Assembly (NCBI RefSeq): GCF_009769735.1
Contig: NZ_WSRO01000002.1
Span: 5,344,001 to 5,408,000, forward strand
Reading direction: 5' to 3'
DNA: 64,000 nt
Source of the DNA: Streptomyces sp. BA2
Lineage (GTDB): Bacteria > Actinomycetota > Actinomycetes > Streptomycetales > Streptomycetaceae
Under the pieces are notes generated by a model. The model ran no database searches. It saw only the letters and a list, made by a program, of their open reading frames with translations, and was not told where the DNA came from. Made by a program: the position numbers and the translations under genes. This document shows positions 13,079-17,708 of this stretch, piece by piece. Each line of letters opens with the position of its first letter. Positions within the stretch are counted from its first letter, which is position 1.

Positions 13079-13198
13079 CACCTGGTCGCGCACTCCTGAG
13101 TGCCTTTTTCTGAAGATTCATAGGGCATAGACCCTGTTGTGCCTTAGATTCTGAACATAGACTCGCGGTATCGCTGAATAATGAAAGGCATCGCACCT

Positions 13199-13654
13199 AT
13201 GGACGCCGTGGACAGGCAGCTCATCCAGGCTCTGCGCGAGAACGGCAGGGCCTCGTACGCCGAACTTGGCCGTCTCGTCGGCCTCTCGGGACCGAGCGTC
13301 ACGGACCGGATCAACCGCCTCGAAGCGGCGGGTGTCATCACCGGCTACCGCGCGACCGTGGACTCCGCATCGCTCGGCCTGGGCGTCATCGCCCTCATCG
13401 GCATCTCCCTCTCGGACGCCGCCGACCACGAGGACGTGGCGCGGCGCCTGAAGGACCTGCACGAGATCGAGGACTGCTGGTTCATCGCGGGCGACGACTC
13501 GTACATGCTCAAGGTCCGGGCGAGTGACGTGGACGGCCTGGAGAAGACGATCCGCAGGCTGAGCGGCACGAAGGGCGTCTCAAGGACGCGTACGACGATC
13601 GTGCTCTCCACGAAGTGGGAGAACCGCGTCGGGGAGCTGCCCGAAGAGGAGTGA
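13199..13654 (+). CDS. Lrp/AsnC-family transcriptional regulator
   Basis: 151 residues from ATG 13199 (MDAVDRQLIQALRENGRASYAEL), the usual Lrp beginning; ATG 13181 in frame would add six residues. An N-terminal helix-turn-helix (ELGRLVGLSGPSVTDRINRLEAAGVI) is followed by the ligand-binding RAM domain (residues about 70-140). It lies between the UbiX and MqnE genes, and may respond to an amino acid. The AT-richer 13100-13180 stretch upstream probably holds its promoter. Confidence 0.9.
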   Translation: MDAVDRQLIQALRENGRASYAELGRLVGLSGPSVTDRINRLEAAGVITGYRATVDSASLGLGVIALIGISLSDAADHEDVARRLKDLHEIEDCWFIAGDDSYMLKVRASDVDGLEKTIRRLSGTKGVSRTRTTIVLSTKWENRVGELPEEE

Positions 13655-15622: not shown

Positions 15623-15916
15623 ATGCTCCGCTACACGCTGATGCGCCTCGGGGTCTTCGTGGGCTGCTTTTTCGCGGTCTGGGGACTTGTCTATGTCGGG
15701 GCCCTGCCGAAGGGGCTCGGGGACTCCAACCTCCTCTGGGTCCTGCTGCTCGCCCTCGTCATCTCCGCGCCCATCAGCTTCGTGGTGCTGCGCAAGGAGC
15801 GCGACCGTGCGTCGGTCCAGGTCGTCGAGCGCGTGGAGCGCACCAAGGCCAACCTGGAGGCGAACCGCACCCAGGAGGACCTCGCCGACGACGCGGCCCG
15901 TGCTGCGAAGTCATAG
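15623..15916 (+). CDS. DUF4229 small membrane protein
   Basis: 97 residues from ATG 15623. Two membrane helices (MRLGVFVGCFFAVWGLVYV and LLWVLLLALVISAPISFVVL) are followed by a charged tail rich in Arg and Glu (ERVERTKANLEANRTQEDLADDA). This matches DUF4229, an actinobacterial family of unknown function usually conserved next to menaquinone genes. A strong terminator follows. Confidence 0.82.
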   Translation: MLRYTLMRLGVFVGCFFAVWGLVYVGALPKGLGDSNLLWVLLLALVISAPISFVVLRKERDRASVQVVERVERTKANLEANRTQEDLADDAARAAKS

Positions 15917-15983
15917 GCGTCCTAGTCGCCCTAGGCGTCCTTTAAGGGTCGCCAGTGTCGTAAGTTTCGTCACAAAGCCCCTC

Positions 15984-16023
15984 AACCCCGGCAATGGAGC
16001 GCACCGCTCCAGGCCGGGGTTTC
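15984..16023 (+). terminator. Rho-independent terminator after DUF4229 gene
   Basis: Outer stem AACCCCGGC / GCCGGGGTT and inner stem GGAGC-G / CGCTCC form a long interrupted hairpin, followed by TTTCTT at 16019-16024. Confidence 0.85.
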
Positions 16024-16080
16024 TTGCGTCCCGGGGGTGACTCTGCCTCTGATTGGCCCCGTCTGACCCAAACAAGACCT

Positions 16081-16117
16081 TTGATGTTCTCAAAGTTCAA
16101 GTGTTAACGTGTTCGAC
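16081..16117 (+). promoter_or_regulatory. Promoter of leader peptide and symporter transcript
   Basis: TTGATG (16081-16086) and TAACGT (16105-16110) are 18 bp apart. The leader ATG at 16118 begins 7 bases after the -10 box, so the transcript is probably leaderless. Confidence 0.6.
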
Positions 16118-16225
16118 ATGAAGACAGCAGCCGCGCACCGCATCGCCATGAGCGTTCCGCTCGTGGCGCGCCTGCATGTCGATCTCTGCCGCTGCATGTC
16201 CGCGGCCTGTCGTTGCCGTCGTTGA
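16118..16225 (+). CDS. Cysteine-rich leader peptide upstream of DAACS symporter
   Basis: 35 codons (or 25 from the internal ATG 16148). The end reads LVARLHVDLCRCMSAACRCRR then stop, with four Cys codons in the last thirteen. The RxHVDL core followed by Cys/Arg residues matches the short leader peptides annotated before sulfur and amino acid genes in actinobacteria, where ribosome stalling at Cys codons senses cysteinyl-tRNA supply. It ends 121 bp before the symporter GTG. Function here is inferred from sequence pattern and position. It is too short for standard gene calling. Confidence 0.7.
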   Translation: MKTAAAHRIAMSVPLVARLHVDLCRCMSAACRCRR

Positions 16226-16346
16226 ACAGCGCGAGCGACAAGCATCAAGTGACATCTGCATTGCAGCGGCGCCGTTACGGCCGTTCCTTCTGACCCCTCG
16301 CGGTCGCCGCTCCCTCACGTCCCCCGCCATTACCCGGAGTGTGTCC

Positions 16347-17708
16347 GTGTCCGCGAACTCCCCCGTATCCCCGGCCGACAAGGTCGAGCAGCCGAAGTCC
16401 GGCTCCCGGATACCCAAGTTCCTCAAGCTGCCCTTCTGGGCCCAGATCCTCGGCGGTCTGGTCCTCGGTGTCCTGCTCGGCTGGCTGGCCCGCAGCCAGG
16501 ACGTGTCCTGGCTCGTCACCACCCTGGACAAGGTCGGAAGCACCTTCATCGGGCTCCTGAAGCTGGCGGTCGCCCCGCTCGTCTTCTTCGCGATCCTGGT
16601 GTCGATCACCAACCTGCGCAAGGTCAACAACGCGGCGCGGCTCGCCTCGCAGACGCTGGTCTGGTTCATGATCACGTCGCTGATCGCGGTCGTCATCGGC
16701 CTCGCGATCGGGCTCATCACGAACCCGGGCGCCGGCACCGGCCTCACCCCGAAGGACGGCGCCAAGCCGGAGACCTCGGGCTCCTGGATCGACTTCCTCA
16801 CCGGGATCATCCCGACGGACGTCATCACGCCGTTCACCGAGCTCAACGTCCTGCAGATCGTCTTCATGGCCGCCGTCGCCGGTGTCGCCGTACTGAAGAT
16901 CGGTGACAAGGCGCAGCCGATCCTGGACCTGAGCGAGTCGGTGCTCGCCCTCCTCCAGAAGGCCCTGTGGTGGGTCATCAAGCTCTCGCCGATCGGCACC
17001 ATCGGCCTCATCGGCTTCGCCATCGCCGACTACGGCTGGGACCTGATCAGCAAGTACGCGACGTTCACCGCCGACATCTACATCGGCTGCGCCCTGGTGA
17101 TGTTCGGCGTCTACCCGCTGCTGCTCTCCACGGTCGCCAAGGTCAACCCGCTGCAGTTCTTCAAGGGCGCCTGGCCCGCGATCCAGCTCGCCTTCGTCTC
17201 GCGCTCCTCGGTCGGCACGATGCCGGTCACCCAGAAGGTCACCGAGCGGCTCGGCGTACCGAAGGAGTACACGTCCTTCGCGGTGCCGTTCGGCGCCACC
17301 ACGAAGATGGACGGCTGCGCCGCGATCTACCCGGCGATCGCCGCGATCTTCGTCGCGCAGATCTTCGACGTGCAGGTGGGCATCAAGGAGTACCTGCTCA
17401 TCGCGTTCGTCTCGGTGGTGGGTTCCGCGGCGACGGCCGGTCTGACCGGCGCCACGGTCATGCTGACGCTGACCCTGTCGACGCTGGGCCTCCCGATGGA
17501 GGGCGTGGGTCTGCTGCTCGCCATCGACCCGGTCCTGGACATGATGCGCACGGCCACGAACGTGGCGGGACAGGCCGCTGTTCCGGTGATCGTCGCCGCC
17601 CGCGAGAAGATTCTCGACCGTGAGGCCTACGAGAACGCGTCGGCTTCGCCGCTCGACGAGTTCGACGGGTCTGTCGACGAGCCCCAGGCGGTGCCTGCCG
17701 CCGCCTGA
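16347..17708 (+). CDS. DAACS-family symporter (glutamate/dicarboxylate or cystine)
   Basis: 453 residues from GTG 16347, 8 bases after GGAG; GTG 16341 is also in frame. About eight helices, with the re-entrant loops SRSSVGTMPVT (HP1 region) and a following FGATTKMDGCAAIYPAI. In glutamate carriers the latter is usually NMDGT; here Lys replaces Asn and Cys replaces Thr, and the GCAxIYPA pattern resembles, from memory, the cystine carrier TcyP of the same family. With the polycysteine leader upstream, cystine import is an attractive alternative to dicarboxylate uptake. A longer reading from 16176 overlaps the leader and has no conservation. Confidence 0.85.
   Translation: MSANSPVSPADKVEQPKSGSRIPKFLKLPFWAQILGGLVLGVLLGWLARSQDVSWLVTTLDKVGSTFIGLLKLAVAPLVFFAILVSITNLRKVNNAARLASQTLVWFMITSLIAVVIGLAIGLITNPGAGTGLTPKDGAKPETSGSWIDFLTGIIPTDVITPFTELNVLQIVFMAAVAGVAVLKIGDKAQPILDLSESVLALLQKALWWVIKLSPIGTIGLIGFAIADYGWDLISKYATFTADIYIGCALVMFGVYPLLLSTVAKVNPLQFFKGAWPAIQLAFVSRSSVGTMPVTQKVTERLGVPKEYTSFAVPFGATTKMDGCAAIYPAIAAIFVAQIFDVQVGIKEYLLIAFVSVVGSAATAGLTGATVMLTLTLSTLGLPMEGVGLLLAIDPVLDMMRTATNVAGQAAVPVIVAAREKILDREAYENASASPLDEFDGSVDEPQAVPAAA

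Follow-up and report, generated by a model that had tools for sequence, protein, structure and literature searches.

A conserved cysteine-codon leader before a Streptomyces DAACS carrier gene points to ribosome-mediated control of a probable cystine importer

What does a short, cysteine-containing open reading frame do directly in front of a symporter gene? This is the question raised by a locus of Streptomyces sp. BA2, which we analysed within a 64,000-nucleotide stretch of its genome (the window). Ribosome pauses in a leader that are read out downstream are familiar from Trp-type attenuators and from arrest peptides such as TnaC. The original prediction had proposed a similar device here, in which the expression of a DAACS carrier depends on the progress of ribosomes through the Cys codons of the leader, and the carrier imports cystine. 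We consider it likely, with a probability of roughly 70%, that a cysteine-responsive, ribosome-mediated attenuator controls this carrier and that cystine is the substrate.

In the model that we favour, a promoter overlapped by an operator would give rise to a leaderless mRNA, the first codons of which encode the short peptide. When Cys-tRNA is scarce, a ribosome would pause in a conserved block of this peptide, most likely with a UGU codon in the A site. We call this codon H+11, as all codons are numbered from the motif His (H+0). The pause would prevent leader RNA structures from masking the Shine–Dalgarno (SD) site of the carrier, so that the carrier is translated, and the translated mRNA would escape premature Rho-type termination or decay in a C-rich spacer. 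With ample cysteine the ribosome would complete the leader and depart, leaving carrier expression low.

The features of the locus all lie on the forward strand. The leader ORF (16118..16225, 35 codons), recognized from the sequence, the ORF list, profile scores and conservation, starts at the ATG at 16118 and ends with a stop codon at 16223-16225; a second in-frame start, GTG, lies at 16109. Its peptide has the C-terminal tail RLHVDLCRCMSAACRCRR. The candidate promoter (16081..16110) comprises a -35-like TTGATG (16081-16086), an 18-nt spacer and a -10 element TAACGT (16105-16110), and the 7 nt between the latter and the leader ATG are typical of leaderless transcripts. We infer the transcription start from this layout and from the conservation of a TAnnnT sequence 6-7 nt upstream of an in-frame ATG or GTG, which is found in 93 of 95 leader-bearing orthologous loci, as expected of a leaderless short ORF. 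A consensus sigma-70 scanner returned 0 sites in the promoter region of the window.

The gap from the leader stop to the carrier start is 121 nt. The carrier gene (16347..17708) begins with a GTG at 16347 behind a GGAG at 16336-16339; these SD and start elements (16336..16349) are identified by start-site counts, with a GGAG-N7-GTG arrangement in 73 of 94 carrier loci, and subgroup consensus folds add a short CGGA/UCCG hairpin able to mask the SD. The ORF, promoter-like element, leaderless distance and gap of the original prediction were thus all found where it had placed them, and the MDGCAAIYPA that it had read in the symporter is present. Its label 'polycysteine' overstates the case, because 75 of 93 leaders hold 3-4 Cys codons and 8 hold only two. 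An Rfam scan of the window gave no match at the gathering threshold. About 3 kb upstream of the leader lies a gene for an Lrp/AsnC-type regulator (13181-13654), the neighbours of which resemble menaquinone genes of the futalosine pathway (all named by eye).

Comparison between genomes establishes the leader and its leaderless layout well beyond this one strain. Among 150 genomes of the same genus, 101 have an ortholog of the carrier, and the upstream DNA of all 101 was examined; an RLHVDLCR-type leader ORF is found in 95. The other six are a contig end (L107), two altered leaders (L013 and L060) and three lost leaders (L062, L099 and L100). Read by eye, L060 has exchanged the Cys at H+4 for Gly, and L013 has a disrupted core and altered Cys positions. 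A pattern scan of named genomes yielded at least 118 loci with the leader motif. Among the matches listed, the carrier is directly downstream in 114 of 118, and the remaining four are three sequences that end soon after the leader and one chance match in another gene type. In a fresh, order-wide set the leader precedes 27 of 29 new carrier loci.

The two misses of the fresh set (L357 and L369) resemble L062, L099 and L100, since in all five streptomycete loci the leader is gone but the promoter region persists, together with a palindrome that we describe below. These are natural leader deletions, and the leader is therefore dispensable in those loci. Outside the genus the carrier occurs in 3 of 15 genomes, at 66-69% identity to that of the window, and all three loci have the leader, two of them being nearly identical. 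Conservation across the genus, named-genome and order-wide sets argues that the pair is old and selected. The leader-carrier arrangement is real and conserved across Streptomyces. A search for RxHVDL leaders before DAACS genes in related genomes, which the original prediction had called for, therefore came out clearly in its favour, and the lack of conservation that it had named as grounds for abandoning the idea is not what related Streptomyces display.

To what class does this leader belong? Its short ORF, which stands immediately ahead of a gene, encodes the core R-x-H-x-D-L-x-R-x5-C. This is the anatomy of NCBIfam NF042934 (cis_reg_atten, 'putative leader peptide'), a class with a R-x-H-x-D-L-x-R-x-x-S-A-x-C core that is found before actinobacterial sulfur-type genes. 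By this anatomy the window leader is a member of the actinobacterial Cys-leader class, though its score of 24.2 bits (23.1 in the genome search) is just below the cut-off of 27. Comparison places orthologous leaders from four genomes above the cut-off, at 29.4 (G118), 28.2 (G133), 29.4 (G159) and 35.9 bits (G150). The window leader has the UGU codon at H+11 (16208-16210), a class rule that comes from the present analysis and not from NCBI's definition. It differs from the class in its score, in additional Cys residues at H+4, at H+6 and after H+11, and in having a DAACS carrier as its target.

Seven other leaders in the genome of the window do exceed the NF042934 cut-off (L108-L114). According to family models, several of which score below NCBIfam's own cut-offs, five of them precede a sulfatase, a luciferase-like monooxygenase, a nitrite/sulfite reductase, a cysteine dioxygenase and an SsuC-type permease; the other two precede cysO-cysM and a rhodanese gene, both named by eye. 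In genome G118 such leaders stand before cysO-cysM, nitrite/sulfite reductase and rhodanese-like genes.

Canestrari et al. 2020 reportedly described polycysteine leaderless short ORFs of mycobacteria, the Ms4527A family (NF042936). The window leader, which has one fixed UGU instead of a poly-Cys run, reaches 15.8 bits with this model and so falls short of its cut-off of 45. What the two share, as far as excerpts of the literature go, is a leaderless, Cys-rich leader in a sulfur context, and Cys-rich leaderless ORFs of mycobacteria are cited as responding to cysteine (in excerpts of PMC13236596 and PMC9094748). Seliverstov et al. 2005 had proposed candidate cys leaders that, like ours, lack terminators and have a polyY spacer, suggested as a possible Rho-binding site (PMC1262725); in the excerpts of that paper, though, the candidates belong to cys and cbs operons of Mycobacterium, P. 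acnes and B. longum, and no Streptomyces cys leader or carrier is named. Our literature search, with limited coverage of subscription papers, returned no paper on the leader-carrier pair or on the UGU rule. The leader class itself is known; what is new here is the DAACS carrier as a leader target, the sensor-codon rule and a second, putatively transcriptional input. The original prediction had not included the fixed UGU codon, the conserved peptide in which it stands or the palindrome that overlaps the promoter. As a separate observation on leaders of this kind, the metL leader of metNIQ in S. lividans, termed methionine-dependent, holds three Cys codons, CMCRRMC (Table 4 in the excerpt of PMC8079986).

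The conserved peptide block RLHVDLCRCMSAAC (16169..16210), defined by carrier-leader alignments and the class motif, ends in the proposed sensor codon, UGU at 16208..16210. All 65 distinct class leaders encode the H+11 Cys by UGU, although the search pattern demanded a Cys at H+11, so that leaders with another residue there are uncounted. These leaders are protein-level HMM matches from the genus, from the order and, beyond the order, from 26 genomes that represent 16 actinobacterial families, and the rule held in all of the genomes sampled from those families. They come from 70 loci, with identical DNA counted once and two loci contributing two leaders each, and the family-search loci are the best-scoring matches, up to 30 per search. 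In 172 carrier leaders H+11 is UGU in 169, UGC in two and Arg in one, where the 172 are distinct DNA sequences from the genus orthologs and the listed matches of the named-genome scan, with L182 left out. The fresh set adds 27 of 27. The class set overlaps partly with the carrier set, since the window leader is in it, as are at least two other carrier leaders (L136 and L275).

UGU is otherwise a rare codon. Among 34 window ORFs, selected for length and base composition, it makes up 13 of 120 Cys codons; the flanks of nine class loci give 16 of 117, and the coding regions of 30 carrier genes 2 of 60. A binomial test against the 16/117 background gives p ~7e-57 if the relatedness of the rows is ignored. 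Nor do neighbouring Cys codons share the preference. The same 172 carrier leaders use UGC 154 times and UGU 18 times at H+4, and the class leaders have 68 UGC and 14 UGU at their remaining Cys positions downstream of the His. Usage at H+6 of the carrier leaders is mixed (81 UGU, 74 UGC), so a UGC bias is not general outside H+11. No further Cys codon occurs from the motif His to the stop in 21 of the 65 class leaders. Because H+11 is a near-invariant UGU although UGU is rare, comparison suggests a single dedicated sensor codon behind a conserved nascent peptide, and that peptide could provide an arrest-type context.

Might the RLHVDLC block and its UGU be kept instead for a reason at the level of RNA or DNA, such as a structure or a protein site, rather than for translation? 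The fixed UGU is itself compatible with this, and several other third positions of the carrier leaders are nearly fixed, on common codons, e.g. CTG in 167 of 172 at H-1. The Asp codon of the block (H+2) is GAU in 121 of 171 carrier leaders, and a mean effect on SD opening that we report below is non-zero. Against such a reading, every third position except H+11 varies across the class while the key amino acids stay, and the leader frame and start codon are conserved. Selection of UGU for RNA structure found no support either, since replacing U by C at H+11 shifts the fold energy no more than replacing C by U does elsewhere in third positions (means of 0.41 and 0.51 kcal/mol). We regard a nucleotide-level explanation as very improbable. 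As an aside, GAU at H+2 compares with 75 of 750 Asp codons in window ORFs, and the His codon of the block is CAU in 68 of 171 carrier leaders against 32 of 249 in window ORFs; this GAU/CAU excess (16175-16183 in the window) is weaker than the UGU rule.

How a pause at H+11 might reach the carrier is less clear-cut. A classical transcription attenuator was considered and rejected, as an intrinsic terminator is missing behind the leader: 0 terminator-like sites were found at 15900-16500 of the window, and none is evident in five subgroup consensus folds. This sets the locus apart from the Trp-type and TnaC systems, as does the proposed inducing signal, a lack of Cys. The same five folds contain a short SD hairpin only and lack a conserved long-range pairing between leader and SD. 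In a subgroup with the CASA leader and a short spacer (8 loci, e.g. L025, L029 and L045-L047) we observed a consensus hairpin, CUGACGU/ACGUCAG, that starts from the leader stop codon.

The spacer between leader and SD (16226..16335) is C-rich and G-poor by base counts over the loci, with 47% C and 24% G and C exceeding G in all 94 carrier loci measured. The same holds for the first 60 nt downstream of 58 of 65 class leaders, compared with 3 of 30 control regions upstream of cds1, and such a composition is expected of Rho-loading RNA. We folded the 92 of 95 loci for which both the leader start and the SD start were found. With a ribosome at H+11, the cost of opening the SD falls by 0.6 kcal/mol on average (p-values ignore the relatedness of the loci), and shuffled spacers give a change of about 0. 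Shifts of at least 0.5 kcal/mol are downward in 41 loci and upward in 15. A stall at H+4 produces a similar mean change, and in the window's own RNA a stall barely alters the cost, from 6.34 to 6.30 kcal/mol. The best-fitting, if weakly supported, read-out is an unmasking of the SD, after which the mRNA would be shielded from Rho or decay.

The claim of cysteine attenuation stands on the conserved leaderless leader, the class mates before sulfur-type genes and a reported co-induction to which we turn now, while it has to do without a terminator, a conserved long-range hairpin or, in the window's RNA, the fold effect. Cys sensing at the window locus is accordingly what we consider probable, with the stall site, the SD unmasking and the Rho step as its presumed parts.

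The window carrier is probably the ortholog of SCO4498 of S. coelicolor, because the published sequence 13 nt upstream of SCO4498, in the excerpt of PMC4991794, matches five carrier loci with one mismatch and at the same distance to the ATG. Genome G118 holds this upstream sequence. In the same excerpts (PMC4991794, Table 1) H2O2 raised SCO4498 expression 12.3-fold, alongside cysNDCHI, cysM, cysA, ssuABC and metNIQ, and the induced set also has genes without an evident sulfur role. By qRT-PCR the increase of SCO4498 was 2.5-fold only, and in an hsr mutant the excerpts report no gene as induced by H2O2 (PMC4991794). The authors credit the induction to SenR, which bound the DNA upstream of SCO4498 in an EMSA (PMC4991794, excerpts). 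A shared shortage of cysteine could explain the joint induction of SCO4498 and the sulfur operons, and the SenR reading of the authors is possible as well. On the former view, much of the H2O2-induced 'SenR' set of S. coelicolor may answer a cysteine shortage that is read by ribosomes.

Transcriptional control is also suggested by the promoter itself. An inverted repeat, CTTTGATGTTCTCAAAG (16079..16095), overlaps the -35 element and is a putative repressor operator on the grounds of its conservation over the loci. Comparison establishes this palindrome, CTTTGR-N5-YCAAAG: 85 of 101 carrier loci have it exactly, and 10 others have it with a single mismatch. In control stretches within coding DNA, the best match of each of 30 loci had 4 or 5 mismatches. 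Exact copies are likewise present at 101 of 114 carrier loci from named genomes, among the matches listed, and at 23 of the 29 loci of the fresh set. A third half-site about one helical turn upstream, with the consensus CAAAG and here CAAAC (16069..16073), emerges from column counts at -49 to -45 across 93 loci. Repression would presumably act at this palindrome.

The genome of the window has the palindrome at three further places, compared with one place for the pattern read backwards. One of them (L130, 1501-1517) precedes a gene that scores above the cut-off of the NCBIfam model for the L-cysteine desulfhydrase Cds1 (605.5 bits, cut-off 600). Of the 30 best-scoring cds1 orthologs (L316-L345), 12 are preceded by an exact palindrome and 1 by a copy with one mismatch; the upstream regions of 8 show three mismatches and those of 9 show four. 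Only 13 of these 30 are clearly above chance, because coding controls gave 3 to 5 mismatches. This suggests a shared, possibly cysteine-related regulator, as yet putative, of the carrier and cds1.

One may thus ask if a transcription factor at the promoter, acting through the palindrome or being SenR as published, is what controls the carrier, with the leader secondary or merely tuning the rate. The near-universal palindrome and its exact copies before cds1 agree with this, as do the EMSA and the induction lost in the hsr mutant, and the promoter region with its palindrome has outlived the leader in the five loci mentioned above. However, the palindrome is missing from the three leader-bearing loci outside the genus, three of the co-induced operons carry leaders in G118, and none of the four palindrome sites of the window's genome is at another leader. 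The last count also removes the palindrome as a general operator of leader operons. We think it unlikely that such a factor leaves the leader in a secondary role, and retain the attenuator as the main control.

The substrate of the carrier is the remaining part of the question. The protein belongs to the SDF family (Pfam PF00375, 346 bits, cut-off 27.9, E 3e-103) and is named in databases and papers as a proton, glutamate or dicarboxylate transporter. It has KMDGCAAIYPA where an archaeal aspartate carrier has NMDGT-ALYQG, with an insertion of one residue. The L-cystine symporter TcyP/YdjN of E. coli (b1729), which has the DAACS fold as well as the GCAxxYPA, SRSS and D..RTA.N motifs in common with it, reads GQNGCAGLYPA with the same insertion, and GltP, DctA and SstT lack the insertion. 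Comparison establishes this signature: among those listed, GCAxxYPA occurs in 112 of 120 homologs of the window carrier and 110 of 120 of TcyP, and it is absent from E. coli GltP, DctA and SstT and from three paralogs in the window's genome. The differences from TcyP are an identity of 29%, an apparently separate clade and KMDG in place of GQNG. In a tree of 14 rows (4 from the window clade, 4 TcyP, 3 further E. coli carriers and 3 own paralogs) the window carrier joins TcyP at 59/49 support, and a grouping with GltP/DctA also survives the test (p-AU 0.249). From the shared GCAxxYPA and insertion, the tree placement being without firm support, it follows that cystine is the likely substrate. 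The original prediction of a cystine importer is accordingly supported by the TcyP signature and left loose by the tree.

A leader that senses Cys by attenuation could also serve a carrier of glutamate or aspartate, of C4-dicarboxylates or of a sulfur-containing acid, aiding cysteine synthesis or redox balance. The best curated model for the carrier is DctA, at 213 bits against a cut-off of 513, and the closest solved structures are aspartate transporters. The D..RTA.N motif is conserved in the carrier, and its arginine is the arginine of acidic-substrate carriers; TcyP has this motif too (119 of 120 homologs listed). In a GlnR review SCO4498 appears under the name gltP, as a glutamate symporter. 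What speaks for cystine instead is KMDGC in the place of NMDGT, together with the extra residue and the YPA that TcyP also has, and the fact that the three paralogs group with DctA/GltP, and the window carrier not clearly so. Another substrate is possible, but we doubt it, and we keep to cystine. Either way, an unassigned Streptomyces carrier would be tied to cysteine supply.

In TnaC-like arrest peptides the nascent chain ahead of the stall codon is conserved. A more specific version of the attenuator would make the sulfur leaders cysteine-gated arrest peptides with one obligatory, wobble-read UGU, to which the carrier adds an operator shared with cysteine desulfhydrase. The nascent R-x-[HA]-V-D-L-x-R-x-x-[ST]-x-x would fill the exit tunnel just when the UGU reaches the A site. 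We offer this tentatively, with the odds leaning somewhat against it. If true, a single Cys codon would make a sensitive sensor of Cys-tRNA, and charged tRNA and a transcription factor would both set cystine uptake. The UGU rule yields a prediction of one nucleotide, UGU to UGC, on how leader peptides read tRNA charging.

A last observation concerns another exact copy of the palindrome in the window's genome (L129, 1501-1517). It lies between a gene for a MarR-type regulator and a VOC-type gene, both named by eye, and could be that regulator's own site.
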